From assembly GCA_037783545.1 (NCBI GenBank), contig JBBELK010000517.1, positions 1,240,001-1,304,000 of the forward strand: a stretch of DNA of 64,000 bases. The letters run 5' to 3'. Positions 3,096 through 58,619 of this stretch are shown piece by piece (position 1 is the first letter of the stretch; every line of letters begins with the position of its first letter). A model generated the notes under the pieces. It worked only from the letters and a program-made list of their open reading frames with translations, was not told where the DNA came from and did not search any database. Source of the DNA: Henricia sp. BOLD:AAB3569. Taxonomy: Eukaryota > Echinodermata > Asteroidea > Spinulosida > Echinasteridae. Position numbers and translations under genes: made by a program.

Positions 3096-6000
3096 GTGAG
3101 TATATGCCTATCAACAGTGAATTCACATTGCACAAACAGTTAAAACAAATCTGTACCCAAGACATCGTGTTGAACAAGTGCAACCTGTAAATATATGTCG
3201 TACAAAGAACAAGAGATATAACCCACTGAAAAGCAGATAAAAGCTCTGCAAAGAATTGCTGACATTTTGTCGGAAAACTGGGCAAAGAATGATGTTTTTG
3301 CGTACAATTTATTTTTCAAGATGGAACTGGTCCTATTATAATTAATTTTACTGTTTTATGTACAATTTTGTTACTGTATTAACATTTCTACTAGGGTATA
3401 GGCTAATTTAAAATTTAAATTTAATAAATCATGACTAAATCACTATCAGTCAATTAATATTCGATATTCGATCGAAAATTTGGTTGGAATATTTGAATAG
3501 TATTAAAATTAATCAAATTGACCCAGCATTATACACCCCTTGCACCGGCGGCCATGACGGGGGGCAGATTTTCATATTTAAATGATGTGACAATAGATCC
3601 ACAAAGTGCCTACTCGTGTAGGACGCACGGTGACAATGGCCGCCCGCCTATTGCTGAGCAGCCTGTTTATACAGGGCATGATTTTGAATTTGTTATTTTG
3701 AAACTCCCCTAATAATAATAATATTTTAGTGTTCACTGTCATTGTTTGTGTTAATCTAACCAGTCTGCAGTGACGTTCCTGAAGGGTTTTAAACCTGAGG
3801 ACATTGTGGTAGCGACAGTCAGTGGCAGTTCTCTCTTAGCCTGGGACGTCAGTCCACCTGGCAGGGACAGTTTAGAGAAGGCGCTGGAAAGCAACACCAG
3901 ACTGGATTTCCGCTTCTCCTATACAGTCAGAAGGTTGGTCAAAGCTTGGTGTTTGAAATTAATCTAGGTGTGGAGGACTTTGTGTTAAAAAGTCCCGTTA
4001 CATTATTTGCAGTGACCTGAACTTTACTTGGAGTTTACAAGAAAAACAATGGTAAAAAACAACACATGATTTTTGTTTTACTGCGTAATATGATACCTTT
4101 GTGAGAGAAATTGCCAACTGAAAATGCTTTTTTAAATAATTGTCTGCAGTCAATTTTTTACCATTCATTCTACACATTCTAAAGTATTACTGATATTTTG
4201 CCAAAAGTGAAAGACGGAAAAACAGTCAGTGAGTCACTGACGTCAATATGCATGTCGGAATACAAAAATTGCATGTATGGTGGGAGTCTCTAGTGTGACT
4301 GCGTTAATTTGCATATTTACATTAATTTGCATATTTACAATAATTTACAAAAACTTGCATTAAGTTAAGCTCATGTAAAGATTGACGTCTGAAACCAATT
4401 TGCTTATCAGTTATTCTGACCAACTGCAACAGTTGATTCCAATAAACCGATCCTGTAAGCTCCGGCCATTTTGGAATTGACCAATCACAGCCTCAGGTTG
4501 AGGTAACCAAAAAGTGGATCTGCACAGAGCTACGGCGAAATGCAGCACAAGTGACGCATAATCACCATAAACATCATTTTTATCAGCGCAGACGACCCTA
4601 GCCGGTTTAAAACGGATTGTATAAGACTATCCTAATCTACTTTTAATCCCTTCATAAATGTGTTTTTGTGTAAATGGGAAAAACTCGCCAAAATTAGCTT
4701 GTCGTTTTGCTATGTTGTGCATTCACTGCGTTCTAGATGTGTCGATGTTTTTGTTCGATCGCTCGCGTTTCGCGTAATGCAGGCATGTTGTACGTGCACG
4801 CACACGACCGGATTGCTTTCGAGCGTGCAGTTTCTGTGAACGTGTGCGTGTTTCAATACGCGCTGACCAGGATGCTGACGCACGGCGCGGCCACGCTACT
4901 GCTACTGCCCAACATGTGTGGCATGTTGCTAGGCAATTTCTAAATGGGCGGAGCTTACTGGATCGGTCTGTTGTGGCAACCCAAGTCGCTCAATTGTTTC
5001 ATGCGCTAATTGGCTTCATAGCTCAAATTGGTAGGGCATCCGCACGTTAAGCAGATGTTTCGCGGTTTGAATCCCGGTGGAACTATACTTCACTGCATCC
5101 AGATTTCCCAAACTCATGGAGATTTGTCCACATTTCTATCAATTTATATAACCTCGGTGGCCCCTAATTCATAATACGTGAAAAAATATATATATATACA
5201 TTTTGTTTTCCTCTCTCTCTCTCTTTCAGAGAAACCGACAGCACCTTAGTAACTCCTGTCGTGGATGGCTACCGTCAGTTTCCGCTGAAGACGGACACTG
5301 ACCGTGGCCGTGCTATGAGAAAAGGCCTCGCTGAACAACTAGCCTCAGATGGTTCGCTTCCAGTGTATGTAGTCATTAGGCTTGCTCACAGTCGGTTTTA
5401 GCATGGTCCCTCCTCGAATTTTTAGCCACCCTGCTATAAACATTTTCTTACTTAATCACAATTTTATGAAGTAATTTTACAAAAGAAATGGCATTTATAA
5501 TCACTTATTTATAATCACTCTTTTGATTGTGCAGTGGCCTGCGCGATGATCTGTATATATGGGTAATTCCCAAAATTAGGGGTCCAAAATGTTTGGTGTC
5601 CCAGTTAGTACGACACTCTCTGCTTCAAAAATCACCACTTATGACCACAAATTCTCATTAATGGACTGTGGCCTGTGATTATAGGGGGCAGCATAATTTT
5701 CTTCTATATTTTGTTTTCTGATTCCTGAAAAATATTCAAAACAAAAGACCACAAAGGCTTATAATTTGTTCAATGGTATTGAATAGGAGTTTGGTGTCTC
5801 GGGTTACCTACATGTACGCCAATGAAAATTAGCTGTAGAATGAGTTTGCATTAACCTTCTACACACACACACATTAAATTGAAGTGGCATTTGTTAAAAT
5901 AAAAATAATTATTTTCTACTGGGAAATCACTTTCAATCATTAAAAACACTTGGAAATCTTAAAAAGCATGTCACACTTTTGGAACCCTAATTTTGGGAAT

Positions 6001-11291: not shown

Positions 11292-14200
11292 AGCCGATTC
11301 ACACAAGTTGAAAAATAATTCAACTCTTTGCAAAATTATGTCTACTTTTGTGTGAAGTAAAAACTTGCCTTTTGTATGGGTGTTGCTAAGTTCCCCGTGT
11401 ACGAGCCGTGAATTTAATCATGATTTTTTAATGGTATGTGTGACTGAGTTATCATTCACACTGCCGAGTGAAGATATTTGTTGTTCCTTAAAATGTAGTA
11501 AATGTATTTGTCTATTTCCGGTTTTTCGTGAATAAGATGTTCTGAAGTTTTAAAACGAATCTGGATGATTATGGTGGCAATTCATATTAAGAGGCTGATC
11601 CAGTCAAGAGTTTGATGTAATCATTTTGTAAGTTTTGTGTTAAAAAAAAAAAAAAAATGAGTATCGACTGAATGAAATGCATTGAGAATGTTTTTCTGAA
11701 TTATAGACGAATCCCAAATTCATTCTGCGCACTTCCGGCTGTTGCTTAACACGAACTAATGTACGCACATGGATGCTCAATCAGTCCTACATGCACTCGG
11801 TCACTGTACAATACTGTACTTATACTACCGACTTGACACAAAGAGCCTAGGTTTTAATGCGGACGTGCACAGAATGGGCTAATTTGGGATTCGTCTACTG
11901 CATAGTATCTTAAATGCAAGAAGACCCCATTTACATTTAGGATTGTCAGTTAATGAAGCTTGTGTTCATATCTCTGAGTGAATATCGAACAAAAAGTGAA
12001 ACTGTTTACATTAAACAACCACTTACACAATATCGAATGAACATGTTACATGTCAAATCAGTTCTGCAAACAAAGGGTTAACATATTACACATTGGCTTT
12101 GTTGCATTATTAAACAATTTCTTCCTTGAATGAAGCTTATTTGGCTTCATCGAACACAAAGATTCTAGTCTTTAAATGAAAAGGCATGAATTCACATCAG
12201 AAGATATTTGTCAAACGAACTCATTTCCCTGATGTGAACAGATTGTCATCTAGGATATTTTACTGGTATAAAACTGATTTCATAATAAACTTAATTAAGC
12301 TGCAGGGTCGATTCACTAAACTTAATATTACGTAAACTAACAGATATTTTACAAATCATACAGCAGTATTCTGTACCATTGAAATTACTAACGGAGTTTA
12401 AAGTTGACTAGTGCTGTGCCACGTATCACTCCCATAGACTGTGTGGACATTCGGCTTCACGCATCGTGGGGGAGTCGCTACCTAATGAGGGTGCATACCA
12501 ACGCGAAATTTGCGGTGTAAACAACCGCCTTTAATATTTTATAAACCCGCACCGTTTACTTGTGAGTAAACTACAAATCGACTATAGATAGTATCTAATA
12601 GCTGCCATCTTGTAGGGCAACTTTTATTTAAATTTGTCAGCTATGTAAGCACATAATGTTCAACCTTGCATGTCCTCACGGAACAAAGATGTGGACGTTT
12701 CTGGGATGTATGCCATGTATAAACGGAAAATACTGTTTTCATTGTAGCGAAGAAAATAGATAGCTGTGATTGGAATGTTTGTAGATTGGAGCTTAAAGTT
12801 AGTGTAATTTGTGCAGTGATGCTACATTATGGCCTTTAAAAGTCGGGTTTTCTCAGGTCTTTGTAATAAGCTGGACTTTCACTTTATTTTTGTGGATGGG
12901 ACGATGGAATGCAACGATACCTTAGCAGTGCGGTGACCTTTGACACTGCCTTCAGTTATTACGCACTGCACATTGGGCCTTCATTTTTTTTTTGGCTTAG
13001 ATTTTATACATGATGCAGTTTAAGTGAGTTTCGGGTGAATTTGTTTAGAATGTGATTCAGCCACTTGTATTTAGAGTATGTATAGAGTACAGTCTGCTAA
13101 ATAACAAATTAGAAAAAAGTGTTTGTTAGTGGCCTGCAGCCGATATCACGAATCCTTGCGCATGCAGGCTTATGCCATTTTCAAAAGTTGGCCAAGCTAC
13201 GCAATTTTTCGTGAAATCGGCTGCCGATAGTTTAGCGTCATATAAATTTGTAGCTTGTCATTCATGTTTGTCGAGTAATGCTTATAATATAGTGTTGTAC
13301 TGTATGTTATTGTTACCAATGTTGAAAGGCACTTTATAAAATTGTTGCATTTGTGCAGTGTTTGGTTTAGGAAAAATTTCAATTTTAAAGTCCATCTTGA
13401 AATTTAGGAATCAAAAATAAACCGAGCGCATTGTAAGTTCTTGATAAACACATACAGGAGGGTTATGGCATGTACTGTGCACAGGTTTAACCTAGACAAA
13501 ATGCATGCATCTGTATATGTGTATCAAGCTCTTGCAGACCACGCACACATGCGTTTTCGGTGTTGTTTTGGGAGTCCAATGAAAGCATGTGTTGCCCTTT
13601 TCAAACACGGATGCCCAGCGAAACACCAATGAGATGTCTTAATTTTGACTCCCAAAATGACTGTCTGCTTACATGTACATGAGCAGCGCAAGGCCAACTA
13701 AATGCACTTAAATTTGTGAAATGAACCTACTTTTGTTTGTACGATACTGTAATTGCATTTTTTTTCTCCACAATTTTTAAGCAACGACTACAAACATCTG
13801 ACAATATTGTCTACTAATTCAAATGAGACAATTTTTAGCCAGAATTGTTAAATATAAGGACTGCTGAATGTATATGAGAAGCAAGTCTTGCAAAGTTGCC
13901 TTCAAAGTTGTTCGTGGAATAGTTTTGCGACGGAAGAAAATACTGATGATAGTTTATTGCCTTTTTGTATTCGCTTATGTATTAAATTGCAGTGGAATAT
14001 CCACGCAAATGCAATATAAATGGGTACCATAACCCACTGTTCCATTGTATTAATGTACGGTATTTCTTTTACATAACTGGAAATGCCACAGATTTGTAGT
14101 TGTACGCCCGTGAACATCAGTGTATCTTTGAATTAGTGTGTGGTATTATAGAAATGACTAGTTCAAGTGGTAGTACTGTGTGCAGTGCAATTTGTCATGA

Positions 14201-16002
14201 ATGATCGCATGTCCTTTCAAATCACTGAATGAATTACTAATTACCCCAATTAAACTATTTTTGCCTTACTAATGTACAATGGTACAGCCATTTTGCCCGA
14301 GTTATTTTCTAAGTTCATTTTGAGCATTATTACATTAATTAGATTATGTGCTTTATTTTCAACAGCAATAAGGTTTTTCTTATAATATTCAAGTTTAATA
14401 TAATAAACGTTGCTTTCATGTGATAGGCTAAATGAATAAATTTGTAAGGATTCCAATTTTGATAATTGTTATTCCAAAGAATTACGTACGTATAAAAACC
14501 AACAAATGACTTTTTTGGCTTCATCACATGAATGATGAACATAATAAATTCAGCCCCATTTTCTTGAGTCTGCATAATTTAAAAACTCAATTTGATAATC
14601 ATTAGTACTAAGGGGCAGCGTGAAGGACGGTATTTCAATTTTAGCATTACTTTGGGAAAAACATCACTGGAAAAATTTGATGTGAAATTAAAATTTGCTT
14701 GTATATTGCTAAATAATTTATGTTTTGTGATCGTCTTATTGCAAGATTGTTCCCGACTGCAAGATACAGCAGTGCTTTCATGCTATGCACTCTTGCTTAT
14801 TCACTTTCATATTATAGCACAAGTGCAGTGCCGACATGCATGGTCCTCAAAGGTATTTTGCTGTGTAAAACTAAAAGATGGCATTTTCCCGTGGCTTGGA
14901 CTGGCAAAACAAGTCAGATGTCGCAGTCTCAGCCTGGTTTTCCCAAACCATAACCAGAAATCAGCAGTGGAGCCAGGGCCATTAAAATGCGAAAATATAA
15001 TGGAAATTCTAGGCACTACCCCAAAACTTCATGGAATTTGTGGGTTCCGCCTAGACTTAGTTTGCAATGTAATTTCATATTTTAAAGTAAGGGACAACAC
15101 TCGTTTGAAGTTAGACAAATTTAACCAAACATTTTACCGGTGCATAAACCTTCATGAGAATCAAAGAATCTTGTTTCAACGTCGGCAACCCAATTAATTT
15201 CGATAATAAACTATGTGCTGTGCCATATTTGAAATTTTGAAAGGGATGATGACGTCAACCATGCAACGATTGCATCATGACGTCAAGATTGATGCCTTGT
15301 TTCCCCGACTCCCATACGCCGTGAAGTATGTAAAAATCTGTTGTGTCCCGACTCCCGCCCTCCCAAGTCCGAGCACCCAACTGCAAAACATGGCGACTCA
15401 CATGAAGCTACAGAGTTAGGCAACCCTTTGCAAGTGTTGTTCCTTCCTTTAAAGATCATGGATCAGCCTTCGATTTCTAGAACTGGTCTCAAAACTCTGC
15501 CCAGACTGCCAGACATCCAAATTACATTGCCAGAATAGGTCGTAAATAAAAGCAAGTTTGATTGAGCGACCGGAGGTAACTATAGTTTCTGCTCGAACGA
15601 CAGAAATTACCCGTTGTTCGAGAGATTTTAGTTGACTATTCACCACTTGCAGTCGCGTTCAAAACGAGCTTTCCTGGCATACGTCATATTTTACAATGAA
15701 CAAAACAAAACGTCACAGCAACCTACCTGGTAACGACGCGAGGGACTCATTGTTCATGTCTCGCTGTTTTGCATCCCATACAGTACTCACCACTTGCACG
15801 GTCGTGTTCAAAACGAGGCTTTCCAGGCATACATAACATTTTACAACGGACAAAAGTCAACGTCACAGCAACCGACATGGTAACGACGCGAGGGACTCAT
15901 TGTTCATATGCATGGAAAGCCTCGCTGTTTTGCCAATGTGGGGGTTCCGTGCAAGTGGTGAATAGTTTAACTACAGCTGCTCAATCGAACTTGCTGATTG
16001 TT
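11292..16002. other. Piezo 3' UTR and intergenic sequence
   Basis: No gene is recognised. The stretch is AT-rich; AATAAA sites occur near 12,284 and 13,417 and could end the Piezo transcript, but none is clearly the used one. A foldback of about 90 bp (GCAGCCGATATCACGAA facing TTCGTGAAATCGGCTGC) lies at 13,136-13,227. An open stretch at 14,592-15,197 has no ATG start and no family resemblance. Confidence 0.6.
15640..15945. repeat. Diverged tandem duplication of about 140 bp
   Basis: Two adjacent copies share CACCACTTGCA, TTCAAAACGAG, GTCACAGCAACC, TGGTAACGACGCGAGGGACT and CATTGTTCAT. The second copy is closed by the inverted phrase GTGCAAGTGGTGAATAG, so the whole may be a foldback element with ends ACTATTCACCACTTGCA. 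Confidence 0.7.
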
Positions 16003-16312: not shown

Positions 16313-16923
16313 ACATGAATTACAGAGCTGAACGTCAATTTAAACAGAAGATAGATTACATACTACATGTATAGTGATTCCATCAGCCCAGTTTCTTTTC
16401 TTGACACCATGAGTTCCATATCAGCTAACTCATCTGAAACAAAACGAAAAAGTTTTGTTTTGTTTATACTGAACACAGGTATTAACACGTTGACTGCCGA
16501 CAACGAGTATACTCGTAGTAACAGTCGTACCGAATTCTGCCACTACGAGTATACTCGTGGGAATGCCCTGTGAAACCATGCTTGGCAGTCAACGTGGTAA
16601 AGCCCATTACATTATATGCAGTGTCCAAAATGTTACCTTATGAGTTGACAATCAAACCTACTAAAAGTGTTCATAGCAATGGTAACACACACACACACGA
16701 CAATTTTCTTTTGTATAAAATTGTACCTTTGTGGGAGAAATTACCAACAGACGGTGGTTCTTAAAAAAATTGTGTGCGCACACATTTTTTTCACCATTCA
16801 TTCAACACAAAAACGATGCATAATTTCTGAAGTATCAATGCATCTATGTAGCTTAAATTTCTACAGTGTAGTTGATTTACATTCTTAAGATATAACCAAA
16901 CTTGGGATAAGAGAAATTGTAAT

Positions 16924-16995
16924 GGCCTTATCGGGATTCGAACCCGAGACCTCTGACTCACTAGGCAGAAGCTCTACCAGCTGAGCTATAAGGCA
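16924..16995 (-). pseudogene. tRNA-like core of a dispersed unit, copy 1
   Basis: 72 bases with acceptor arm GCCTTA/TAAGGC, D-arm GCTCAGCTGGTAGAGC and a perfect T-arm TCGGGTTCGAATCCCGA. The anticodon arm does not pair at normal spacing (TCTGC against GTCAG), and base pair 1-72 is missing. The same core with the same flanks is at 46,134-46,205 and 55,484-55,557, so this is a mobile tRNA-derived unit rather than a working tRNA gene. Confidence 0.7.
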
Positions 16996-21800: not shown

Positions 21801-24800
21801 CCACGCTGCACACTGTCTTAACTGCGCGCGCAACGCCCGTGCCATTGTGATGCACACAATGAAACATTTCAAAACGGGACCAAACTATTTTTTCTGCAAG
21901 CCTCGCTTTGGTTACGTTCACTTTAATAGGAGAAAAGGGAAGATGGCCGCACCGTGATAAAGGTCTATAAGAGAGAACACATGTCACCGACTATCTAATT
22001 CTATCAGTAAAATTGTACTTATTCCTACCGACTTCAGTAGCACTTCACGTTGCTGGTCTTTAATGGACGCTAAAATCTGGCTGGCCTGTTTTAAAACACT
22101 TTCCTTTCTGGCTCTAGTCAGTTTGTGTGTGCACGGTAAACTTGAATACGATACAAATGTGGGCAAATGTCCACATTTATGCACTCAATATGCAGCACTT
22201 TGAATGAATGTGACATGCAACACGACCTGTAGGAAATATGACGAAGTTTACTTTTCAAAGAAGAGGCCTCGGAGTAGAGGCGAAAATTTTGGACATATAA
22301 TATCCACAAAGGTCTGTGGCTACCATGAGCAATTTCATAAAGTTACTTTTAAATAATTTTGGATCTTTTCACTGTACAGAAAGCATATTCATGAATGAGA
22401 ATTCAGAGAGTTTGTTACTAACCTTGAATGGCCTGTTGGCTGTGATGTAACCTGAAGGAACCTCCTGGAAGGGGTGTCGACTGGTTGCTCCAATTGGCTT
22501 GGCAGGGAATTCATCTTGAGCTTCATCAGTCTGTAGCAAAAACAAATGTACAACCATGTATAAGCACAGAGAAAGGAAACTATTCGGTATCAGATGCAAA
22601 TGAATTATTGCCAATAAACGTTTTGTCATTCATGGCTTAATATCAACTGCCAAATCCACAAACTTATTTACTTACCAAGCAAAACCTCCAGTAGCCAATG
22701 CAAAATTGTTTCCCTTACAAAATTGTAGACCGAATGTAGTGACAAAAGATGAAACTGCTGTACATGTACATCCCAACTTTGGAACCAACGATACGTAGAA
22801 GCTTGCAATGAATATGAAACAAGTACTGCACATGTATATTGTAATAAGCATTTACACTTGGTGATCATGTTTACTAGAGTGTAAGGGAGAAGACAGACTG
22901 ACCACATGATTAGGGAATGAGTTTATAATATAAACTCTGCAAGTAAACTACATATGTACCCGTACATGTACAACATGACTGTTCCCTTGTCAATCTCCTT
23001 TTGACTGGCATCAATGCACAAGCTGGCAGACATATGTGGATGGCGAGTTCTTTCACTACAGAACAAATACTAATCACTCAGCTGGATCCAAAGAAAACCA
23101 GTAAAGCAGGAAGGCCTGGGATAGAATGCTGGGTTATGGAGGGATAAATGCCCTGTCCAGGTGCTGGACAAAGAAAAAGATGCCCTCTGTAGCCACTAAT
23201 TTAAATATGACTGCATAGTTCTCTTGTGCAGCACGATATGTGGCAAATGGACTCCCCTACCATTGTTCCCCTATTGTGTCTCAAACATCCAAGAAATTTC
23301 CAAGGAATTCCTTTTAGTTTTTAGGGGGGGATTGCAGGGCTGCCAACATTGAGTAAAAGTTCAGAGTGAGATTTTGTGAGTGAGTGCGCGGGGCTGAGGG
23401 ACAATCGCGACCGAGGGGAAGGATGGAGTGTGTGGGAGGGGGGTTTCGACGATACGGAGCTTTTGCACTTTTTAGGTAGAAATGGTCCAATCTGGCGCAT
23501 AAAAGTGCCTCTGGCATAGATATTTTTATCCCTCCAGTTCCATTAGTTAATTCAGTCTCAATCCCAAAGGTTTTCATTCACCATTAGCTTTTCTCACCTA
23601 AAATGTCTTTCACTTTTATCAGTGCACTGAGTGCAGATTTGATAGGAAACACCAAATTTACGTGAACTTTCTTTTTTTTAGACTTAAAAAAATACTTATT
23701 TTCAGCAGGGATATATCGTCAAAATATACACCAAAACTTTTCTCAACTCTTTTTGTTTGCCCACTACTTTTCCGACGTTGTCCACTTACACCTCAAATGT
23801 TTCCTTTGCAATTAATCCCTGCCGCGATCATTGCAATGCACAACTGCATATTTTTTGCGATGAAAAAAAATGACAACTCCATAGATCGAGCGCGCGATGC
23901 ATGAACGATGGCATTCACCTTTCTTCCTTTCGGATTGATGACTAAAATGAGTTGGGTACCCATACTCCCTTCCAGAGAAGCCATACTGATTGCGCGAAAA
24001 GAAAAGCACCCGACCAGATGATCAGCTGGAGCTGTCAACAGAGGGCGCCCTTACTTGCATCAATACTAGCGGATGCTATTGGTAGGTACCAAAAAAGATC
24101 GATCGCCGTTACTTTTTTTTTGAGAGGATAATTTTTTTAAGCGTGAGAAAATGTCATGCGTGCGTGAGAGCGTGAGGATGAAGTCAAATGCGTGAGTCTC
24201 ACGCTCAATGCTTGAGTGTTGGCAGCCCTGGGATTGGTGGTTAACAAAAGGGAAGAGTGTGATGAGGTATAGGGGCGTTAGGGGGCGGGGGAGTCCCTCT
24301 GCCACATATCTTGCTGGGTATACAGAATTTAGCTGAAACAAAACAAGCAAAGCAAAAATTGTTTTTAGAACTAGAAATCTGAGCATTCAACAAAGAAAGC
24401 AGACTGGGTACAGAACTCAACAGGGGCTCAACAGGGCCAAAGAAAAGCAGGAAGCAGAAAAAGTGTAGAAAAAAGCAGGAGGAGCTACCAGTAATTTACC
24501 ATTTGTGACGGGCTCTAGGAAAATGAGTCACAAGTCGCGCTGGCTAGTATTCTTTTTGCGACCATAAAAAGAAATCCGCAGCAAATCCACGCTCAATAAA
24601 ATACCAAAACACAATGGAAATTCCTGGCCATGCCCAGATACCGCCTGGAATGTCTGTGTTCCGCCTGGAATGTCGGTGTTCCGCCTGGAATGTCGGTGTT
24701 CCGCCTGGAATGTCGGTGTTCCGCCTGGAATGTCGGTGTTCCGCCTGGAATGTCGGTGTTCCGCCTGGAATGTCGGTGTTCCGCCTGGAATGTCGGTGTT

Positions 24801-27800
24801 CCGCCTGGAATGTCGGAGTTCCCCCTGGAATGTCGGAGTTCCCCCTGGAATGTCGGAGTTCCCCCTGGAATGTCTGCGTTCCGCCTGGAATGTCTGCGTT
24901 CCGCCTGGAATGTCTGCGTTCCGCCTGGAATGTCTGCGTTCCGCCTGGAATGTCTGCGTTCCGCCTGGAATGTCTGCGTTCCGCCTGGAATGTCTGCGTT
25001 CCGCCTGGAATGTCCGCGTTCCGCCTGGAATGTCCGCGTTCCGCCTGGAATGGCCGCGTTCCCCCTGGAATGTCCGCGTTCCCCCTGGAATGGCCGCGTT
25101 CCCCCTGGAATGTCCGCGTTCCCCCTGGAATGTCCGCGTTCCCCCTGGAATGTCCGCGTTCCCCCTGGAATGTCCGCGTTCCCCCTGGAATGTCTGCGTT
25201 CCCCCTGGAATGTCTGCGTTCCCCCTGGAATGTCTGCGTTCCCCCTGGAATGTCGGTGTTCCCCCTGGAATGTCGGTGTTCCCCCTGGAATGTCGGTGTT
25301 CCGCCTGGAATGTCGGTGTTCCGCCTGGAATGTCGGTGTTCCGCCTGGAATGTCGGTGTTCCCCCTGGAATGTCGGTGTTCCCCCTGGAATGTCGGTGTT
25401 CCGCCTGGAATGTCGGTGTTCCCCCTGGAATGTCGGTGTTCCGCCTGGAATGTCGGTGTTCCGCCTGGAATGTCGGTGTTCCGCCTGGAATGTCGGTGTT
25501 CCGCCTGGAATGTCGGTGTTCCGCCTGGAATGTCGGTGTTCCGCCTGGAATGTCGGTGTTCCCCCTGGAATGTCGGAGTTCCCCCTGGAATGTCGGTGTT
25601 CCCCCTGGAATGTCCGTGTTCCCCCTGGAATGTCCGCGTTCCCCCTGGAATGTCCGCGTTCCCCCTGGAATGTCCGCGTTCCCCCTGGAATGTCCGCGTT
25701 CCCCCTGGAATGTCTGCGTTCCCCCTGGAATGTCCGCGTTCCCCCTGGAATGTCCGCGTTCCCCCTGGAATGTCCGCGTTCCCCCTGGAATGTCCGCGTT
25801 CCCCCTGGAATGTCCGCGTTCCCCCTGGAATGTCCGCGTTCCCCCTGGAATGTCCGTGTTCCCCCTGGAATGTCTGTGTTCCCCCTGGAATGTCTGTGTT
25901 CCCCCTGGAATGTCTGTGTTCCCCCTGGAATGTCTGTGTTCCCCCTGGAATGTCTGTGTTCCCCCTGGAATGTCTGTGTTCCCCCTGGAATGTCTGTGTT
26001 CCCCCTGGAATGTCTGTGTTCCCCCTGGAATGTCTGTGTTCCCCCTGGAATGTCTGCGTTCCCCCTGGAATGTCTGCGTTCCGCCTGGAATGTCTGCGTT
26101 CCGCCTGGAATGTCTGCGTTCCGCCTGGAATGTCTGCGTTCCACCTGGAATTTCTTTTGTGTTTAGGTATTTTAATGAGCGTAGAAATGCCACAGATTTA
26201 TTTTTATGGTCGCAAAAAGAATACTAGCCAGCGCGACTTAAGACCCTTTTTTGCAGATCGAGCGGGTCACATTTGACATTTGGTGCAAGATATGAGACCA
26301 AGTGACTCTCATTCCATTGTTCCCCTATTGTGTGTAAACCATCCAAGGAATTTCCTTTCAGGTTTTAGGGGGAATAATTAATATATTTCGTTCTAACCTA
26401 ACAGTCATATATAAAATACATCCCCAAAAATATTATAAATGGGAAGAAATCAGTTAATTTGCAATCTTCAATTTGGATGTGGAAGCAGAAAGGTTGGTGT
26501 AATTATACTGCACTGCTGTATGGAACCGGATAAATTAGATTACAGAACATCGGTGTTTTTAAAAAATGATATTCTTGAAAATATGCCGATTGAGAACGCT
26601 ATAAATTCATATGACAAATGATATGGTACACAAATCACAACACCAATGGGGAAAATGGGGAGTTCAAAATTGTGATCTGGACAGCTCCTTTAACAAAAGG
26701 GGGAGGGGGAGGAGAGTCTCATATCTGGCAGTCTGGCAGCATAAAATGTATATCATTTGCAATGACCCAAAATATTACATGTACTTGACAAAAAAGTGTT
26801 GATAGCAATAGTAAAAAAACATTGTTGCAATTTTAATTGAACTCATGTGTTATTTACATACAATACTTGCAAATTGTGTTTGTTACAAGTGGATTATTTT
26901 ATGTAATGACTAGCTGTATGTATGTGATGATTAATTCATCCGTTCAGGTTGCATAATAAACTCCTCAAAAAAAGTTCGGTAAGTGAAGTTTGACTGACGA
27001 TTTCTCTCTTGTTGCAGAATAATTTTTCTTGAATTTTAAATCATTGAAAAGCCCTGTTATTCCTCTTTACGATGATGTGTCATTTGTTATGATTAAATAA
27101 TTGGGGGATGTGCAGCGCAGCTGAATATGGGGGCGGGTGTAAAGTGAAATGTTACAAAATGCAATGCTATTGTAAAAAAGTGTATTGACACATTCCCATC
27201 CTCCAAGCAAAAGGGGAATGCACTGCATGACAATAGACTACTAAAGTGAAAACGTCACCCTTTGTGTGTTGCCATGGTTTTTGGGTCTACACTAAAACCA
27301 GTGAACTGTTTCCCTGCGCTATACCAATGGAGGTTTCAGATTACCAGCAAATGTTTAGACGCAAAAACCATGGCAACCGACGTCACACTTTAGTAGTCTT
27401 TTGCAGTGAATTGTGTGACATTTCACTTTTTACCCACCCATGTATTCCGCTATACTGCACATCCCCCAATTGATTAATCATAACAAATAACACATCACTG
27501 TAAAGAGGAATAACAGAGATTTCCAATGATACCAAATTTAAAGGAAATGATTTAGTAACAAGAGAGAAATCGTCAGTCAAACTTGACTTTCCAAACTTTT
27601 TTTTGAGGAGTTTATATAAACTGACTTGAAGATGTATGAAAAATAAACCAAACCAAACACCACATGAATTTACTTCTGTCTTACTACTCCCAATTAGGGC
27701 CTTTTTCCAAATCTCGACTTAGAGACGGAGACGAAGCCGAGATTTAGAAAAGCCCCAAGTTAGGGATATTGGTATGTTGTCAATTTTGGAATTGTTTTTT

Positions 27801-30800: not shown

Positions 30801-33800
30801 GGAGCTGGTTTTTGCTCAGGTTGGTTTTAATCATGCATATCTTCAATCACAACGGGGAGATAAAACTGTTTGCAACGGTTTACCAATCGTTCTGCCTTTA
30901 ATGATACAATACATGCACAAATTAGTATGTCTCGAACAGATAGGCTGACTGCCCAATTTTGTTTCTAAACATGGCCAGTGAGGTTGAACCTATAACTGTG
31001 GAAGGTTTATTCCATACTTTGGTTAAACTGGATTGGACCGTGTTTACACTGGTCCCGAGCTCGGGATCAAGATTGACCCCCTGATAAGAATGTGTTGAGG
31101 TTAACCGCAATGGTCTCGAGTGCCGCGTTTATATATGTTGTTGATCCCGAGCGCGGAGCCAGAAGTTGCAGTCAAAGGTCAAGCTAACGCAGCAGAATTT
31201 CGAGATGTTCCGTCCAGTTTAGCCATTATTTCTGCACTGGCCCAAATGTCCAAAAACCTCGCCAGTTTGTCGTTGCTCCACGAGCGCCCGCGAACTTCGT
31301 TTGCCATCTTTTCACACGAAGACAACTCGACTCGGCTACTTCGTCTTCGTCAACTTCTCTTCACGACGAAATAATGTCAACTTATGCTATGTCGGAAATC
31401 GTTGAATGACACTCCGAAATCCTTGATATAACAACTAAAAACTAAGCTGTATGATAATGACAAAGTGTCGCTAGATAGTTGCAGAAAGTAGAGAAGTTGC
31501 AGAAAGTAGAGGAAATACAGAAACACTTTTTCTCAACGTGTGAAGTTTGTATCGGACAGCAAAAGAGATTGCTGAATGTAGGATACCAATTACGTTTGTA
31601 GTACGTTGTGTTTTCGTAACGGACACCAGCGATCGAGATTCTCAGCTTTGCATCACATGAGTCGCGTCGGGGTATCATGCATTTTGTCCAGGCATATATG
31701 CCTGCACACAATGCATGGAACCAGTGGTACCCAGCTGTGTGCGTGTATACAGTCGTGTACACGTGTACATAATACGAGCGCGGGCTCCCCTGGAATTTTC
31801 GCGCGCTTTAGCCCGCAACAGGATGTGGGGAAGATTTATTGCCCAGCTAACCGCAAACTGATCCCGAGCTCGGGATCGAACCCTCCGCCATCGCGAGACC
31901 AAAATCTCGGGGTCTGATCCGGGGCCAGTTTGGTTCCGAGAGCGTTTACACCTATTTGTGATCTGGGGCTGATCCCGAGCTCGGTGTTCGATCCCGAGCT
32001 CGGGATCAAGTGTAAACACGGTCTAAGAAATCAAACGGAAGAGGCCCTGAAATTGTATCTTTATCAATGAAATATTTTGTATGCAACTACTAGCTGACTC
32101 CAATCAGTTTCAGTCATAAAACCCTATTTGAAAGTTGTTTTGGTGTTAAAATCAAAGTTTGGGGTTTTATGCTAATATGAATTTGCACGTTATATTTCTT
32201 TGGACGGCATAAATGGCCAACAGTCTTTATTCAAAAAGTGTCCTCATACTGGATATTATATGAAACAAGTTTTATATGATAAGTGTAGTTGTGGTAAACA
32301 AATGTAAAGTGCAAATTGTTTCATTGGTTGGAGGTTGTACGCAAAACTAGGCAAAATTATCGTTACTCACGTTACCGTTACGTTACACTAAGCTGACTAT
32401 CAGAGCCACAAAAACATAATTCAACTTCATGCCGTCATTTCTAACACATGCTAAAAAAAAAAAAAGTTTGTCCTACATGCCTAGGAGTATTTTGAACAGA
32501 ATAAGATAGACAGGCTTTAAAATGATAATTCATTTTTTCATCTTATGGAATTGCCCTATAAGGCAAACACAGGAAAATTACACTCATCAATTAGCTTTTT
32601 TGCATTTGGGTCTTTCCACGCTAATAGGCCTATTTGAAGATGTCTTCAGTTTATCTCAAACTTAAAGAAATTCCCCAGGAGATAACTTTTGCCCAAAAAG
32701 TTAAGAAAATGCTGCCACAACATACATTTCTGAAAAGGTTGTGTACAAATTTTCCCTTATACGTATGTAACTGGACAGACAAGGGAATTTTTTTTAAGTT
32801 TGAGATAAACTAAAGACATCTGAATGGAATTATTGATTTATTTTTCAAATGGCCCATTAGCGTGGAAAGACCCATTTGCATAATGGCTGGTGCGCTGAAT
32901 TCTTCACTTTATGCAGTTTAGAAAGTCACATACTACGCTGTTACGTGGTGCACGCCACTGCCAAGCAACCAACAGTCCGGTTGCTTTATGTCATTCCTTG
33001 CTACCGTACGGTGAACACGGTATTGGTTTTGTACTTTACACCTGCCACGTGCACCACATAAATGTAGCAACAAAAATTTAGTCTGGTCAAGTGGACACTA
33101 GAGGACCAGTACTGGTAGACTGTGTGAAAGGCTTCATAAACATACTGTACATGTACTTTGGACTTTGTGACACTGGGTCTTGAGAGGGAGTAAGCAAAAC
33201 TTTGAAACATGCATGAGAAATAATTTGAACTTACATGTACCTTAAATTTCCAGATAAAATGGCATCTAATGTAACGGCTGAATCCTTGCTGGAAACAATA
33301 AGCACAGGCCACCTGGAATGTTCCATCTGCTCCTGCCGATTCAAGCAGCCCAAACTCTTGGACTGCTTGCATAGTTTTTGTCTGCAGTGTCTTCAAGGAC
33401 TCATACAACACCAAACTCCATCAAACCGTACATGTACCAAGCTGACTTGTCCTCTTTGCAGATGTAAAACAACACTAAGCAGATCCGGGGTTAATGACTT
33501 ATCTAATGACTTTCGGCTGAGTGCACTTATTCAAGAAATTACTTTACAAGAGAAGATACTAAAGGGGCAAGAGACGGTCATCAAATGTCAAGGCTGTGAT
33601 GAACATAATCAGGCCATCTCAAGATGCATGGACTGTGAACATTTCCTCTGTCGGGAATGCCACAAGGCACATGAACGCATGACTGTCATGAAATCTCACA
33701 AGATCTACACCATGGCTCAGTTTCAATCTGGAGAGATTAAATATAGAAGTGAACTCAGAAGTGAAATACCAAAATGTAACAAGCATCCAAACGAGAGCCT

Positions 33801-36800
33801 TAAGATCTATTGTGAAACATGCAGGCAATTAGTATGTACGGATTGCTTAGTCCTTCAACATGGGAAGCACTCCATTGTGGATCTGCCAGAAGCTGTCAAG
33901 CAAAGCAAAAAAAGAATAGAGGGTGCACTTGCTAAAGCTGAGAACATAAAGGCACAGTTTAACACTACGATCCAAGAAACAGACACAATGCGTACAAAAA
34001 TGGATGCTGCCTTCACCGACACAAGGGAGAAAATCTCCAAACGGGCTGAGAAGCAGGTTGCCAAGATCAGAGCAGAAGAAGAGCAACTTATGGGGGTAAC
34101 TGAAAAGATTTACAAAGAGAAAGCCAGCAAATTTGAAGCTGCCCAAGCTTCAAACAGCCATGACATGATAAAGTCTCAACAGAAGCTTGTGGAGGTGAAA
34201 CAACTTGTGACAGAAGCAACTTCATACGAGATTCTGGAACTCGAAAACAAAATCCTACACAATCTCACTGAACTGGCAAAGCCACAAAAAGTTCCTGTGG
34301 GATTATTCTTCATGGATTTGAGAGCAACTGACAATAATGTACTGATTGGCAAAATATTCACGTAATACCCAAACATCTACGGCTACCCTTTTTTTCCATG
34401 ATCAGGTGTACTACATTGATTTAGCAGCCAACATTGGTGAAAAATGAATTGCTTAAATCGGGTTATCAAACATTTCAGCTGATTGGTACATATGTCTTGA
34501 AGTATATTCAGCTGAAATGTTTTCGTACAAACTGCATTCCTTCCAAAATAAATGTCAGTTTTGTATTTCATGCTGTAGATTGGGGGTACGGACACTACAG
34601 TTTTTGCCTGTAGGTGTGGAGGAGAGAAAATAATATTACTTGTAATCATTTATTATGTATAAATTATCCTGTTTCTAATGTAACAGTCATAGATTATACA
34701 CTATTCTTGCACAGCGCCCTCACTTGACCCCCAAGGTAAACCACAGGTACATGTATAGTACACTCATTTTTTTTCTGAAGTCACTTTTACCCCTGTTAGG
34801 CGCAATTTTCATGCACACGCAATTTATAAAATTGCGCAAGCAGATTTAAAACCTGCGCGCGCAAATTTTAAAGCATTTGTGAAGTGAACATTAACAACAA
34901 GCTGGTTTTATACACAAAGGGGCAAACTCAAATTTGTTTTTATTTCAGAAAGAAGTGACCTTTTCTTTACTTAAAAATTTTCATGACAGATAAGGGCGCT
35001 GTAGGGAACCCACAGTTGAAAAACAAAGAAAAAACATTACATTTCAAACAGTAACAGTACCCCACTGATCCATTTTGGGCTCAAACAAACTTGTCAGGAT
35101 TGTTGCAAATGACATACTAAACAAACTGATACAGTTCATGATATTAAGAAGCCACTGAAAATGACACCAACTTTTGTACACAAGTCTATAGAGAATATGG
35201 AAATTTGCTCATGAATATGGAAATTCTCATTAGCATAAAAATAGAAAACTTGCAACTATCAAATTCTCTGAAATTGATTGAAATGTGTAAAACACATACT
35301 GTACTGTACTTTTATGTAATACAAAATCCTATTTCATACATGTACGTCCTTTAAAGGACGTGTGAAATAGGGTTTTTATTACATAAAATAATAGTAGATG
35401 TGTTTTACACATTTCGGTCAATTTCAGAAAATTTGATAGTTGCGTTTTGGTGTAATTGCACATTTTCTATTTTTATGTTAATGAGAATTTCCATATTCAT
35501 GAGCAAAGCCGTGATGTCATCTCAGGAAAAACAGAGGAATTCTCCATAGACTTGTGTACAAAAGTTAATGTCATTTTCAGTGGCTTCTTGATATCATAAA
35601 CTATATAAGTTTGCTGAGTTTGTTTAGTATGTCATTTGCAACAACCCTAACAAGTTTGTTTGGGTCAAAAATGGATCAATGGGCTACTGCTACTGTTTGA
35701 AATGTAATGTTCTTTCTTTGTTTTTCCAATGTGGGTTCCCTCCATGACCAGCAACAAACAGCGCCCTCGCCTGACAAGACATTTTGAAGTAGAGAAAATG
35801 TCACTTCTTTCTGAAATGAAAACAAATTTGAGTTTGCCCCTTTGTCTGCAACACTTTGATCTTTTGATTTCTGTATAAAAACAGCTGGGTGATAATTTTC
35901 ACCTCACAAAACCTTTAAGCAGGAGGTACTGAATAAAATCGGGCATTCGCTCATGTCACGTGCTGACTGCGACTTGATAGCGCGTGCGCGTGGAGACGCG
36001 ACTTTAAAAAAATAATTCCAGGTGGAAAAAAATAATGTTTAAGACCCGAACTTTCGTTTTCTTGTTTATTTTTTTTCAAAAAAAGCTCTAAAGACCACCC
36101 TTAAAATTTAGCATATTCCATAATTCCAAAGGCAGCCATGTCTGGAAATTATCCCTCCACTATAGGGAAAATTAGAGCACTTCCAGCCTTCATTTTCATT
36201 TACAATTCTCAGATCTGAGTTGCAAGACCCCGAACCAGGCTTAAAACATTACATTTGGGGCCCCCCAAGATGCTTTACGAGGTGTGCAATTATTAATGAG
36301 CTTGGCGCATGGATCTGACCCATGCCGCATAATGCGTAGGGGAGCGTGGGGTTATTTGGAACAATTTTTACAAAATTGTTTACAAAACATTAAAGAGGAT
36401 GAATCCCCTTGACGAAAATCCAGCATTTAGGCTTTTTTCGATAGTCCAAACATCCCTCTTGCATCCCTCTTTATTTTTTTTTAATTGTCGGTTTTAAGTG
36501 GATAAATTGCAAGCAAAGGGCACTTTTCGAAAATGTTTTTTTTCGCGATTTCTGAAACGCTCATTAGGTATTCATGATATGCGCGTGACCCCGTGACGCA
36601 ATCCTGAGAAAGAGAAGTCAACACGATTGTTAGCTCCATATGTTTACACGCAAAAAACTGGGAAAACTGTCTCTGTTAGATGGTATTTTTTGAAGAATTT
36701 TGTTGGTCCAAAAAGCCAGAGATATGCCCAGTAGCTGCGTGGTTGTATGTTTTACCAGACACTATGAAAAAAAAAGAGCAGAAAGATTTTCTTTTCTATT

Positions 36801-44813: not shown

Positions 44814-47800
44814 GCAATCTTATATAGCGCCAAATGCCAGGGCCTCTAAGCACTTTACAGTATAAAAACAAAAACCAAAGCGATAACATACATATACATG
44901 TACATGGATAAAAAAGATTAAACGTTAAAACCAAAGAGCATCATCAAGAGCATCAAGTCTGGTAATACTGAACAATAGACGAATCCAGAAATTAGGGATT
45001 TCTTCCCTGTACATCCGCCATAGCTGGGGGCCATCCAGTGCCATGAACTGAGCATTTTGTGATGCTGAACTGATACATTATGTTGTCACTTCGAACAATT
45101 TGTGCGATTATTGTAAGCTTGTGTACGCAAGGGGGTGCATTGCATGCATCATGGATGCACGCTGTTCATGCACTGGATAGCCCCACAGTTCACGCACTAG
45201 ATGGCCCCCAACTATGGCGGATGTACAGGGAAGAAGTCTTTAGTTTATTCATCTATACAATTATCCAAGAGAAGGACTCATCCATATATCTGCCATTAGA
45301 TAGGGGGGCTTCCAGTGAATGAACCATACGTTTAGTGTTGGTGCTAAGCTGTTACATTTTGTCGATACTTTGAACAAGTTGTAGTACATTTTCCACAATA
45401 ATTCAACACCAAACATGTTTTTGAAGAATCCTTTTTCATATGCTATCATTTAAAGTCAGTTTATACGCAAATATATAATTCCAAATTTTGTAAAAATGTG
45501 CACCTCTTTTTTTGGAAGAGTACATTAAAACAGAAGTTTGGCTGAGTTTCCCACCTTTTTTTGGACGACGCTTGTTGCGCTGCCCTTGGCGAGCTGTCTG
45601 CTTTTCCCTTGGACTCTTGTGGGTTTCTCTCTCCATCAGTCTTGTGTCTCGTCGTTGAGTGTGATCGAGTGAGCTCTGTGTGCTGGGTCTCAGAGGCTAA
45701 GACGTCTTGGGTAGGGAGTGAGGGAGCGGCTACAGGATGCAGGAGATTCAACCCAGCTGCCAAGTAAAAAGATGTTCGGTATTAATGGGCAATTCTAAAA
45801 ATTTGAAAGTGGGGTGTTTCAAAATAACATGAATTATTTGTCAACCATAAAACCAAAAATCTAAATTTCAAGTGACTGAAATAACCACATCTCTACATAT
45901 TTTGAACCAGTGTGCACCACACCTTTTAAAAAGTGACAATGTTATTTAGTACTTTTCAGCAGGGTCACTGTTTTAGTTAATACTAAACAACAAAAGAAAC
46001 AATTTCTTTACTTTTAGATTTAAAAACATCATGCCAGATTTTGCATTTGTTACTTTGCCCAGTTGCGCTACCATGCAACACCGAGAGAAGAATTGGGTCC
46101 ATAGGAAAAACCTGAGGGAGTATATACCAACTGTGCCTTATAGCTCAGCTGGTAGAGCGTCTGCCCTGCGAGTCAGAGGTCTCGGGTTCGAATCCCGATA
46201 AGGCCCTTTTTTCTCTCATCCCAAGTTTGGTTGTTTCATTTCAATGACGATTAGGCACCATGCCAGATGTTGCATTTAAAAAAGCAGTCAATCTGAGAGT
46301 GGGGATTTTCAGCACACAGAAGCTTTATGCAGTCATGCATAAAGCTTGTGTGTCCTGAAAATCCCCTCACATGCATAATGAAGCTGTTATTTGTGAATAT
46401 TTCGATGTCAACTTTACACAAGGTTTCAAATTTTGATTAAACTGAATTTTTTGTTCACCCTCGGTATACACTTCAAATTCCTTGAGGGCTTGCAACGCTT
46501 CACATATATTCAATGTTTTTTATTTTAAAGGTACAGGCTCGTCAGCAATGCGCGCGCGCCAATTTCATGCCACGAAATACGCAGCTCCATAGCAAAGGCA
46601 TGGAGCTGCGTATTTCGTGGCACGAATTTGGCGCGCGCGCAATGCTGATGAGCCTGTGCCTTTAAGCAAATGTTTAAATATCTCTGGTAGGAGTGTATAA
46701 CTCCCTAAAAATTGATTGTAATGTGATTTTCAAGTGTGACCATACAAAAAAATAATAAGTGCATTTATAAGTGCTTCCAAAACTGAGGTTTTTTTTACAT
46801 ACCATGCTTATTTAGAATGGCATAATCAATTAATTGTTCAGAAATTACACTTCCATCAAGGATGCCTGGAGAACACATTTAAAATCAATAAACTTGAACA
46901 TGTGAAGCACTACAGGCCCTCACAGTCTCTGAAATGTATCTGAATTTCTAGAATTCCCCTAATATAAGGCTATTTTGATGATTGGGCTCTTGGCCGATTA
47001 CCTCGTTATAATAGGAACCTTGTATTAACAGGAATGAAAACGATAAAGTACAAGAAATTGGGACCTAAAATGTTCCTTGTTCTAAGTAAAATGTTGCGTT
47101 AAAGGTGCTCTTATTATTTTGTTCTTCGGTTCGACTGTAATTTTTTAAAGAAAAATCCAAAAATTAAGAATGCAAAATATACATTCTATATATTGTGGTC
47201 CAATTATATTTTTGTGAGAGTTTACAATTTTACTTTTATTTTAGATTCACATGCGCTGTACATTATTATGAGTTTACAGAAGCTTACAAGTATCTTCCAC
47301 CTAAACATCGAGATACATAGGTGGTTGGCGCCATTGGCAGCCGACAGCCAGAGACACCGGGGAATCCCCTTTTACTCTTCACGAAAGAGTGCCTCTGGGA
47401 TCTTTTAAGTGCGTTACTCAACACACTTGACCAACAGCTTTACATCCCTTCCGAAGGATGGAGCAATTGTAGCTAGATGCCTTGGTCAAGGGCACAGGTA
47501 CCTTGGTCGGGTATCAAACCCGCAACCCCAAGTTTTCACCCAAGTATTGCGAGTCAACGACCTAAACCACTCGGCCACGGTACCCCACACATCGAGATAC
47601 AGGTGGGTGGCCCCCTTGGAGAAAATTTCCAAATTTGTAACAATGTACCATACTTTAGCAGCAGTACTTTGGATAATTATGGAAGGTCTGCAGAAAACCC
47701 ACAACAGTTTGCCGGCATTTGAATTTCTTGTAGTACCAGCCAAGAATTTGATGGAAAAACACACAAGGTTGAAACCTACCTTGTGCAACCTTGGGATTGC

Positions 47801-48822
47801 AGTGTATATCGGTTGATGCATAGAGCACGGCGAGGCCAAACTCAGACTGGGGAATGGGACGTAGACCGTTCCTTCAAAGTAACAAACAGGAGGGACGTTA
47901 TCTCACGAAAACAGCATGGATTCTGGATGTTTCAAGTATAGACCCTTTGCACTGGCGGCCATGACAGGGGGCAGTCACATTGTCACCGTGTGTCATTAAC
48001 GAGTAGGGACTTTGTGGATCTATTGTCACATCATTTAAATATGAAAACCTGGCATTTGTTGGGGAAAAGAATATCACATCCAAAGGTGTCATGAGGTAGG
48101 GATGTTACATGTACTGTGTCTTGTTTTCAAGGAATGACCCTATTCTTGGGTTTCACTTTCTTGACAACCGGTTGCTATCTGCCATTACTGTGTCCATACT
48201 ATGGCACGCCAAAGCGAAAATAATTAAACACTGATAATTTAATGTCGACGCATATTTTCGCAAATGTTGCGCAAGAAAACAAAAGTTGGCATGACTTTTA
48301 AATGTTAATAGACTGTTTAAAACTGGCATACCGTGCTTTTGTTGGCAAATTTTTAAAAATGTTGAGACTTTTTTTTTTTAGGGTTGATGGCAAAATATCA
48401 GTGTTGAATTATTTCTGCTTTGGCGTGCCATAGTATGGACACAGTAATGACGAATAGCAACCGGTTGTCAAGAAAGTGAAACCGAAGAATACGATGCAAC
48501 CTAAATGGCAACCATGACATCATGATATAGACTCTATTCACGTATTGCGCAATCACGGCCAAAACGAGACACGAAACGCAAACAAAACATTTCCCACGGT
48601 TCATCATCACTGTTGTGTATTTTTTGCACGAATGATTTGCGCTGTGAACCAGACAAATTACTGTCTTTCTACAGGTTGCTCAAGGCAATGGTACAGCATA
48701 AGTCCTGGACAGTACAAAATAGGTGAGATGTTGGATGTAACTTTTCTGGTAATTGAAAATTTAGGTGTTTAATTCTGATTGTCGCGTCGCTTAGCTCACC
48801 GTGCATGTGAGCCGCTGTGAGT

Positions 48823-53193: not shown

Positions 53194-53878
53194 CTGCAAA
53201 TTAGAGGAAAATAGCTCTGGATAAGGCCCAAATAAAATTCTGGTTACACAACTCGGCTTCGCCTTGTCAATGTATTGACACTCATAAACATTCATTATTT
53301 GTATACTGAAGAACCTAAAAATAACTAGCGGACAAACGGACACAAAATCAGTATTACATGTATGTCATTTCATCCCATCACCATACATTCGTAACCGAAA
53401 CAAAACCCATCAGTCTACAGTAGTTAATTTTACCTTTGCTTGGCAAGCAATCATAATTTCTTAGAGTAATTTTCAAGTCTTATGCACCTGCGCTTGACCA
53501 CAAACAAACATTTAATCTGTCCACACATTAGTTACGAAGTACTTCTACTAATCAGAGGAACTCTCTTAAGTATCGGGATGATGCGAGCACTCCTTAGCAA
53601 TGGAAGCAGCCGAGACAGCTTGCCGATTACTTAGCTAAAAAAAATTACTTTCTTGTTGAAATGAAACCTCATGCATATTGGTGCTTTTGAAGTTTGAGCG
53701 AAGGTACACTTTTGATTACTCATCGGTAAAGTTCTTTTAAATTAACGGAGCAAGCAGCAAATCACGCATTCCCACTGCAAACTACTGATTTTGCGTGCAA
53801 TGTTGCGAGACTCTATGCCATATTTCTTGGCTTTTGTCAGCATTTACTGGTCAGAATTTCACTAACTGCTTGACAGTT

Positions 53879-55090
53879 ATGGAAAGAGTCGCAAGTAAAC
53901 CAACGGAGATGGACAACTCAACCGCTTTTAATTACTGGTTGTCAAGTGATGAAGATGGCAAGGACTGGCATCTAATACGCGTGGCTTCTATTGTGAAGAT
54001 CATCCTGCTTACAATAATAGTCGGCTTTGGAACGCTTGGTAATTCTCTCATCATTCGTGTGTACTGGAAAAAGAAATGCAAGTCGAGCACGCAAATCTTC
54101 ATCTTGGGCTTAGCTTCTACAGATCTAATTATCTGCTTATTGCTCATCTGCCAAATTGCGGATGCTGGCATCATCCTTTCTCAAAAACAGCTTCCGAAAC
54201 TCTGGTATGTCTGTGACATCCTGACCAATATTTGCAACGGCATGGCTGTGGGAATCACGGCATTTATTGCTGCTGACCGCTATGACTGCGTGTGTCGTCC
54301 GCGGAAGCGATGGTTCACCAATTTCCGGGCCAAGATAGCCATTCTAGGAGTTGCTCTCATCTCTGCGGCAACCGGGTTATCCGACAGATTTTGCATCGGG
54401 TCTTGTGAGACATTTCGTTTCCCCCTTTGGGTAATTCAGGATATTACGCTCTGGTTGGCAGTCCTGGTCATCGGTTTCTGCTACAGCAAGGTTTACTTGA
54501 CCATTCAACGGCACGTTAAAATCAACAGCGCATGTGCTATGCGTACGTCACGGCACGCCCAGAAGAATTGCTTTCCCGGAGCTGGCAACAAAACATACTT
54601 ACAAAAGCGACAATCTGGCGGCAAGATTCATGATCTAACTCATGCACATACTAAAACTTCTTTGGGTGCAGAGGCACCCAAATTTAACTCACAGACCGTA
54701 AAAACCATTTCCACGAAGGCTCTATCTGTAGGATCTAAACCAGCAAACATTGCGGCAACTAACTTCGGTGCTGCGCTAAAACCACAGAACAATGCTACTC
54801 GTGTACTGGTACCACCCGGCTGCTCAACATTACAGCAAAAGACGACGCGAATGTTGTTTGTGACCAGTGTGGTCTTTATTCTGACATGGCTCCCATCCAC
54901 CGTCTGTACAATTCTAGCTGTAGTTGGAAGTATCGAGGAAGGAACTGGTGTGTATTACATTGTAAACAATTTTGTGTGGAAAATGTACTTCGTGAACAGT
55001 GCAATCAATCCTCTCATTTATGGTCTGGCAAACGGACGTTTCAGAGATGATTGCAGGAAAGAACTGCAGAAGATGCGATTTCCTTTTTGA
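53879..55090 (+). CDS. Rhodopsin-like (class A) G-protein-coupled receptor, intronless, orphan
   Basis: 403 residues from the ATG at 53,879; an N-glycosylation site N-S-T follows at residue 13. Seven membrane spans are visible. TM1 has G-N (N55), TM2 LASTD (D82), TM3 Cys112 and DRY 133-135 followed by DCVCRP, TM6 FILTWLP and TM7 NSAINPLIY (NPxxY at 377-381). Two family anchors are lost: the TM4 tryptophan and the TM5 proline (Ala at the 5.50 position). The third cytoplasmic loop is long (about 120 residues), basic and Ser/Thr-rich. The tail after TM7 is short, ending RKELQKMRFPF. The ligand is unknown; peptide or amine cannot be decided. An open extension upstream to 53,795 starts at GTG and is not used. 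Confidence 0.93.
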   Translation: MERVASKPTEMDNSTAFNYWLSSDEDGKDWHLIRVASIVKIILLTIIVGFGTLGNSLIIRVYWKKKCKSSTQIFILGLASTDLIICLLLICQIADAGIILSQKQLPKLWYVCDILTNICNGMAVGITAFIAADRYDCVCRPRKRWFTNFRAKIAILGVALISAATGLSDRFCIGSCETFRFPLWVIQDITLWLAVLVIGFCYSKVYLTIQRHVKINSACAMRTSRHAQKNCFPGAGNKTYLQKRQSGGKIHDLTHAHTKTSLGAEAPKFNSQTVKTISTKALSVGSKPANIAATNFGAALKPQNNATRVLVPPGCSTLQQKTTRMLFVTSVVFILTWLPSTVCTILAVVGSIEEGTGVYYIVNNFVWKMYFVNSAINPLIYGLANGRFRDDCRKELQKMRFPF

Positions 55091-58467: not shown

Positions 58468-58619
58468 TGGTTTTACTCATTTCTCAAAGACTATAGCACT
58501 TTAGACGAAACCATTTCAGGGGAAGTTTTCTATGGTCATCATGTTTATATTGTGCAAGTAAGGCGTAAATCTGTGAACATTTCTGATTTTCGAGATACCA
58601 ATCATGTATACTGCCTTTA
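58468..58619. repeat. Right half of a TTAAAGGCAGTATACATGAT element abutting the LINE
   Basis: Matches 8,696-8,850 closely (TTCTCAAAGACTATA, AACCATTTCAGGGGAAGTTT, GATTTTCGAGATACCAATCA) and stops at CTGCCTTTA, the element's natural end, exactly where the LINE open frame begins. Confidence 0.8.

Follow-up and report, generated by a model that had tools for sequence, protein, structure and literature searches.

The presence of tandem repeats inside miniature inverted-repeat transposable elements (MITEs) has been published for frogs, bivalves, lepidopterans and one bacterium (PMC4596501; reviews), so that the element described here, from the sea star Henricia sp. BOLD:AAB3569, would be a further example of an established kind. 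It is located at positions 24506-26269 of a stretch of 64,000 nucleotides (contig JBBELK010000517.1 of assembly GCA_037783545.1, positions 1,240,001 to 1,304,000 of the forward strand). This stretch is called the window below, and all that is concluded on family size and spread is drawn from it. Between two long inverted arms, the element carries a minisatellite of 75 units of 20 bp. An invertebrate parallel is reportedly provided by MITEs with tandem repeats in the clam Donax trunculus (by title, Satovic and Plohl 2013).

For the MITE miDNA4 of Xenopus tropicalis (Scalvenzi and Pollet 2014, summarized in PMC12628747 and PMC9659126), an internal repeat is described that is found either as one monomer or as an array whose length varies, bounded by short direct repeats, and in this it is like the Henricia element. 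It is assigned to Tc1/mariner, whereas the element described here has a target site duplication (TSD) of 6 bp; this comparison is one of descriptions. Xstir/Xmix, another Xenopus MITE, also has MITE-derived tandem repeats riding on the element, but in Xenopus free arrays are reported as well. PMC12628747 derives the Xstir repeat from internal sequence, and a table of PMC9659126 derives it from the terminal inverted repeat (TIR) (Hikosaka and Kawahara 2004). In Porphyromonas gingivalis, the MITE BrickBuilt is described as a 23-nt minisatellite without spacers between a leader and a tail with inverted ends (PMC4596501), an arrangement like the one found here, in a bacterium and with small inverted ends instead of arms of 122-126 bp. 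The foldback element Tetris of Drosophila virilis (PMC4079207) is likewise non-autonomous, has inverted repeats and gives rise to tandem arrays, but its repeats of about 220 bp are described as lying inside the TIRs and not between them. The 'mirage' minisatellites of amphioxus were set aside as a parallel, since they are presented as tandem duplications over exon-intron borders in an account (PMC3087553) whose description of them does not mention transposon arms.

Anatomy of the element and its array

Of the features by which a MITE is recognized, the element has terminal inverted repeats, a TSD and no coding capacity. Its parts are as follows.

24500..24505, no strand: left TSD, CATTTG, an exact and maximal 6-bp direct repeat
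24506..24627, plus strand: left inverted arm, from TGACGGGCTC... to ...GGAAATTCCTGG, matching the right arm, read as its reverse complement, in 101 of 126 aligned columns
24628..24643, plus strand: unique sequence of 16 bp that separates the left arm from the array and whose final three bases (CCG) are those of a unit end
24644..26143, plus strand: array of 75 units of 20 bp, CCTGGAATGTCNGNGTTCCS, with 12 variants in ordered runs and no indels
26144..26269, minus strand: right inverted arm, whose inner end, CCTGGAAT, doubles as the last, partial unit, and which ends in ...GGGTCA
26270..26275, no strand: right TSD, CATTTG, an exact and maximal 6-bp direct repeat

The total length is 1,764 bp, which would become 284 bp if the array were cut to one unit; MITEs usually measure less than 500 bp and occur in many homogeneous copies. 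The element starts with TGACGGGCTC and ends with GAGCGGGTCA, with TGAC facing inward at both ends (TGAC..GTCA); TG..CA is at the same time the end signature of long terminal repeats (LTRs). The CATTTG copies abut both ends and coincide with the ends of the arms, and the bases next to them on either side differ. A 6-mer is shared by 45 of the 62,224 position pairs of the window at this spacing (about 7e-4). The exact repeat at both borders confirms the coordinates and CATTTG flanks that were given in a first-pass annotation of this DNA, made by a model from the letters alone. The arms that it recognized are equally real, with a local alignment score of 152 against a maximum of 89 among 4,629 window pairs of the same geometry, but they measure 122 bp (left) and 126 bp (right) rather than about 130 bp. 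Their alignment contains one 4-base gap, and identity is uneven, at 82 of 94 columns towards the array and 19 of 32 columns towards the ends of the element. The interior was said to hold nothing but the array; this is correct for the 75 units, to which the 16 bp of unique sequence have to be added.

The regularity of the array is high. Tandem Repeats Finder (TRF) reports a period of 20, 75.4 copies, 97% matches and 0% indels, and all 75 full units follow each other at a spacing of exactly 20 bp. Sixteen of the 20 unit positions are invariant and variation is confined to positions 10, 12, 14 and 20, with three of the 75 units departing from CCTGGAATGTCNGNGTTCCS at position 10 or 20. All units are in a single orientation in one central array, and TRF detects no tandem repeats inside the arms. 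The order of the variants is far from random: 47 of the 74 neighbouring pairs are identical, as compared to a mean of 9.7 and a maximum of 19 in 5,000 shuffles of the 75 units, and 70 of the 74 pairs differ at no more than one site. The largest mixed block that recurs has 5 units, so long segmental duplications are not required. The first and the last full units are the sole full units that occur once, as expected where homogenization spares the edges of an array. The run order and the edge pattern thus look like the trace of slippage or unequal exchange between neighbours, with the edges spared. The instability that the first-pass annotation attributed to the array is plausible, the runs of identical units representing past turnover.

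The array also differs from its surroundings in composition, with a G+C content of 0.61, whereas 2-kb slices of the window range from 0.35 to 0.46, except for the slice 24001-26000, which covers most of the element (0.56). When folded as single-stranded DNA, three 60-base samples of the array were more stable than their shuffles (z -2.5 to -2.7), and the arms taken singly gave z values of 0.2 and 0.3. Other arrays of the window were rejected as sister elements after a comparison of inverted flanks in 12 array regions, picked from 27 partly overlapping TRF rows, each with 250 bp of flanking sequence and against shuffles. The array of the element scored 146 against a shuffle maximum of 34, region 60307-60347 was marginally above its shuffles (31 versus 29), and none of the remaining 10 regions exceeded them.

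A coding role of the array was considered and rejected. The unit is free of stop codons in all six frames, which explains the open reading frames (ORFs) of 532-559 amino acids that run across the array. The sole Pfam match, to Peptidase_C33, was obtained in a scan of one of the six reading frames and has a whole-protein E value of 2.3e-12 with zero stretches that pass on their own, which marks it as a repeat artefact. None of the four Rfam hits of the window above the gathering score is at the element, ARAGORN gave no match on it, and a scan for bacterial promoters and terminators found no promoter-like site and two sites resembling terminators, against a mean of 2.4 terminators in shuffles. 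With no coding or demonstrated function, the array would be a passenger that is copied along if the element moved again.

Regarding classification, TSD length and terminal bases suggest a GingerRoot-like superfamily. GingerRoot elements are described with a 6-bp TSD and with ends that are mostly TA..TA and occasionally TG..CA (PMC10045372), which allows for both features of the Henricia element, the TG..CA ends being of the rarer type. IS3EU proper shares the 6-bp TSD but is reported always to have TA..TA ends, and was rejected because the element ends in TG..CA. Dada elements, described as lacking TIRs and inserting in small RNA genes (PMC3706591), were ruled out in view of the long TIRs and of the lack of an Rfam match at the element.

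A one-unit relative and the origin of the array

Searching with an nhmmer profile of both arms of the element (126 model positions, built from these arms only) revealed one further clear match in the window, some 9.5 kb from the element. It is adjoined by a single copy of the unit.

14892..15013, plus strand: decayed relative that covers almost the entire left arm (two-arm nhmmer profile, E 3.3e-10, model positions 5-126 of 126)
15030..15055, plus strand: single, unamplified unit in the position that corresponds to the array start of the main element, 20 of 24 positions identical
15448..15533, minus strand: uncertain candidate for a decayed right arm of the relative, an inverted match to the relative's own left arm

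An E value of 1e-30 for this relative was obtained with a second profile and is not independent, as that profile includes the relative itself. Separate comparisons agree with the match: blastn aligned 14947-15055 (E 4e-12), and the left arm plus first unit gave a pairwise score of 110 with the relative, the best of 279 control windows reaching 30. The next best place for the unit outside the element has 16 of 24 identities, and no second unit was found near the relative at 14 of 20 or better among starts 14891-15540 on both strands. The stretch 15448-15533 scores 44 against the left arm of the relative, a value equalled by none of 1,838 controls (best 41); its nhmmer E value is 0.12 with the profile lacking the relative and 2.4e-4 with the profile including it. 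A weak arm-like stretch is also present on the minus strand at 14040-14103, about 800 bp to the left of the relative (E 0.049 without and 0.036 with the relative in the profile), and a similarity at 32601 (score 44) was dropped because it is gappy and was not recovered by the arm profile. In total, the 64 kb contain one clear and two weak relatives. Exact arm and unit patterns had no match in the collections viral_contigs and genome_contigs, nor did the left arm by blastn in plasmids; these collections are viral, plasmid or prokaryotic and little informative.

In one family, the repeat is thus present both as a monomer, in the relative, and as an array of 75 units, in the element. In the decayed relative, the corresponding place is taken by one unit without an array. 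The array is therefore probably secondary to the element, and this points to expansion in the element copy or its lineage. The first-pass annotation had proposed a mobile element without a transposase, and the arms, the ends, the exact 6-bp TSD and the diverged, near-full-length arm of the relative support this. Its further suggestion that the element spreads ready-made arrays is not borne out by the sole clear relative, which has one unit only; copies lacking an array were half of what it had named as speaking against its proposal.

We consider it probable that the locus is a non-autonomous TIR transposon of the MITE kind, which was moved in the past in trans with formation of a 6-bp TSD, and in which a single internal unit was amplified locally to 75 copies. 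A transposase made elsewhere would have moved the element and left the target duplication. The ancestral element would have had one 20-bp unit in its middle, and a model for it can be obtained by reading the element with the array reduced to one unit, ...CCGCCTGGAATGTCTGTGTTCCACCTGGAATTTC... In this form, the single unit is bounded by an 11-bp direct repeat, CCGCCTGGAAT and CCACCTGGAAT, with one mismatch and 20 bp apart, the second copy including the inner end of the right arm. The first duplication could have come about between CCGCCTGGAAT and CCACCTGGAAT by replication slippage or unequal exchange. Short direct repeats flanking a motif have been proposed as the starting point from which minisatellites arise (Haber and Louis, summarized in PMC6947457). 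Growth to 75 units may have followed by repeated local slippage or conversion, as the runs of identical neighbours and the one-step changes suggest. An ordinary one-unit MITE would in this way have gained an array in the element copy or a near lineage. Array growth inside MITEs is also among the processes described in a review (PMC12628747). The one-unit relative and the 75-unit copy would form a before-and-after pair within one window, from which the emergence of a minisatellite within a transposon could be read at the level of bases; the known picture of array origin is left unchanged.

Several points weigh against this explanation. The outermost 30 bp or so of the arms are their least alike portion. 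The ends of a transposon are usually the part of the element that is kept best. To the right of the relative's unit there is no significant alignment with the right arm (934 of 1,861 controls were as good), and when 15448-15533 is compared to the left and right arms of the element itself, 35 and 210 of 1,838 controls, respectively, do as well. A competing weak inverted match surrounds the relative's unit at 14982-15085 (E 0.007; 2 of 1,000 shuffles as good), and the relative may be a fragment. No TSD was seen at it on inspection by eye, which was not systematic. The words that bound the unit are only weakly alike in the relative, so the 11-bp repeat may itself stem from the amplification. A single TSD and a single clear relative make a small sample. 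Finally, the authors of miDNA4 reportedly favour capture of a pre-existing tandem repeat (PMC12628747), which is a different order of events.

Other explanations of the locus

Another order of events can also be envisaged for the Henricia element. An array-bearing master copy, in which the array had been grown or captured, could have spread as a mobile minisatellite, so that the array was present at insertion and would be found at many loci in differing lengths. That the array is entirely within the borders set by the TSD fits this, and reviews accept that MITEs and Helitrons disperse tandem repeats, with rice minisatellites cited by title. The sole clear relative in the window, with one unit and no array, argues against it, as do the units, which are far more homogeneous than the arms are alike and make a large part of the array look more recent than the divergence of the arms; the arms may, on the other hand, have been unequal at insertion. 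We regard this order of events as unlikely, though still the strongest of the alternatives. Similarly doubtful is the wider proposition that a GingerRoot-like vehicle with a 6-bp TSD seeds 20-bp arrays at many loci and is the source of many of the minisatellites of this species.

An explanation outside transposition would be a palindrome or inverted duplication whose loop contains a minisatellite and which is flanked by a 6-bp repeat by chance. The window is rich in inverted pairs (50 of at least 26 nt within 6 kb), and the low similarity of the arm tips is compatible with such an origin. It becomes improbable in view of a 6-bp repeat located exactly at both borders, with the chance frequency given above, and of a near-full-length relative of an arm some 9.5 kb away that is adjoined by the same 20-bp unit.

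Selection on the array is compatible with the transposon explanations. The unit includes ACATTCCA, which we take to be the TEAD/M-CAT core, and the array might accordingly serve as an enhancer or decoy. The exact motif is present 73 times in the 1.5 kb of the array and twice in the window outside 24401-26400. It was picked post hoc, and any 20-bp unit would hold some motif about 75 times, which leaves such a role very improbable. Hardly better is the case for a foldback element like Tetris or Galileo, whose arms include tandem repeats: long arms and tandem repeats co-occur here as they are described to do in Tetris (PMC4079207) and Galileo, but in the Henricia element the units lie in a single central array with one orientation, and TRF detects no tandem repeat within the arms. 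A solo LTR with a minisatellite grown inside, which the TG..CA ends and the 6-bp TSD would fit (LTR elements are listed with TSDs of 3-6 bp; PMC10045372), can practically be dismissed, since LTRs do not have inverted arms that exceed 120 bp.

Other features of the window

Outside the element, the ratio of observed to expected CpG is 0.77, which is little depleted; taken with the protein-coding frames listed below, this points to an invertebrate animal. Several inverted pairs other than the arms are present, the ones mentioned here being among the 25 matches listed of 50. About 700 bp downstream of the element, a pair at 26967-27603 has arms of 201 nt that are 82% complementary and 235 nt apart. 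A long nested palindrome at 34905-35854, with pairs at 34905/35854, 35000/35744, 35112/35623, 35204/35507 and 35252/35443 that are 88-93% complementary, has the appearance of an inverted-repeat element of its own. The stretches 48140-48491 and 52205-52516, about 4 kb apart, each have inverted arms of their own and match each other, and are probably two copies of one palindromic element.

A LINE-like element (long interspersed nuclear element) occupies 58587-63288 in three different frames, with an ORF without Pfam match at 58587-60446, an endonuclease at 60050-61225 and a reverse transcriptase at 61204-63288. Pfam also identified a RING/B-box (TRIM-like) ORF at 33229-34365 and a rhodopsin-type receptor ORF at 53789-55090. 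The four Rfam matches are to tRNAs, at 5012-5085, 16923-16995, 46134-46206 and 55483-55557. Three of these sites were also called by ARAGORN (bacterial code), two of them without a resolved anticodon and one as Pyl, and for this reason the four sites are likely to be tRNA-derived short interspersed nuclear elements.

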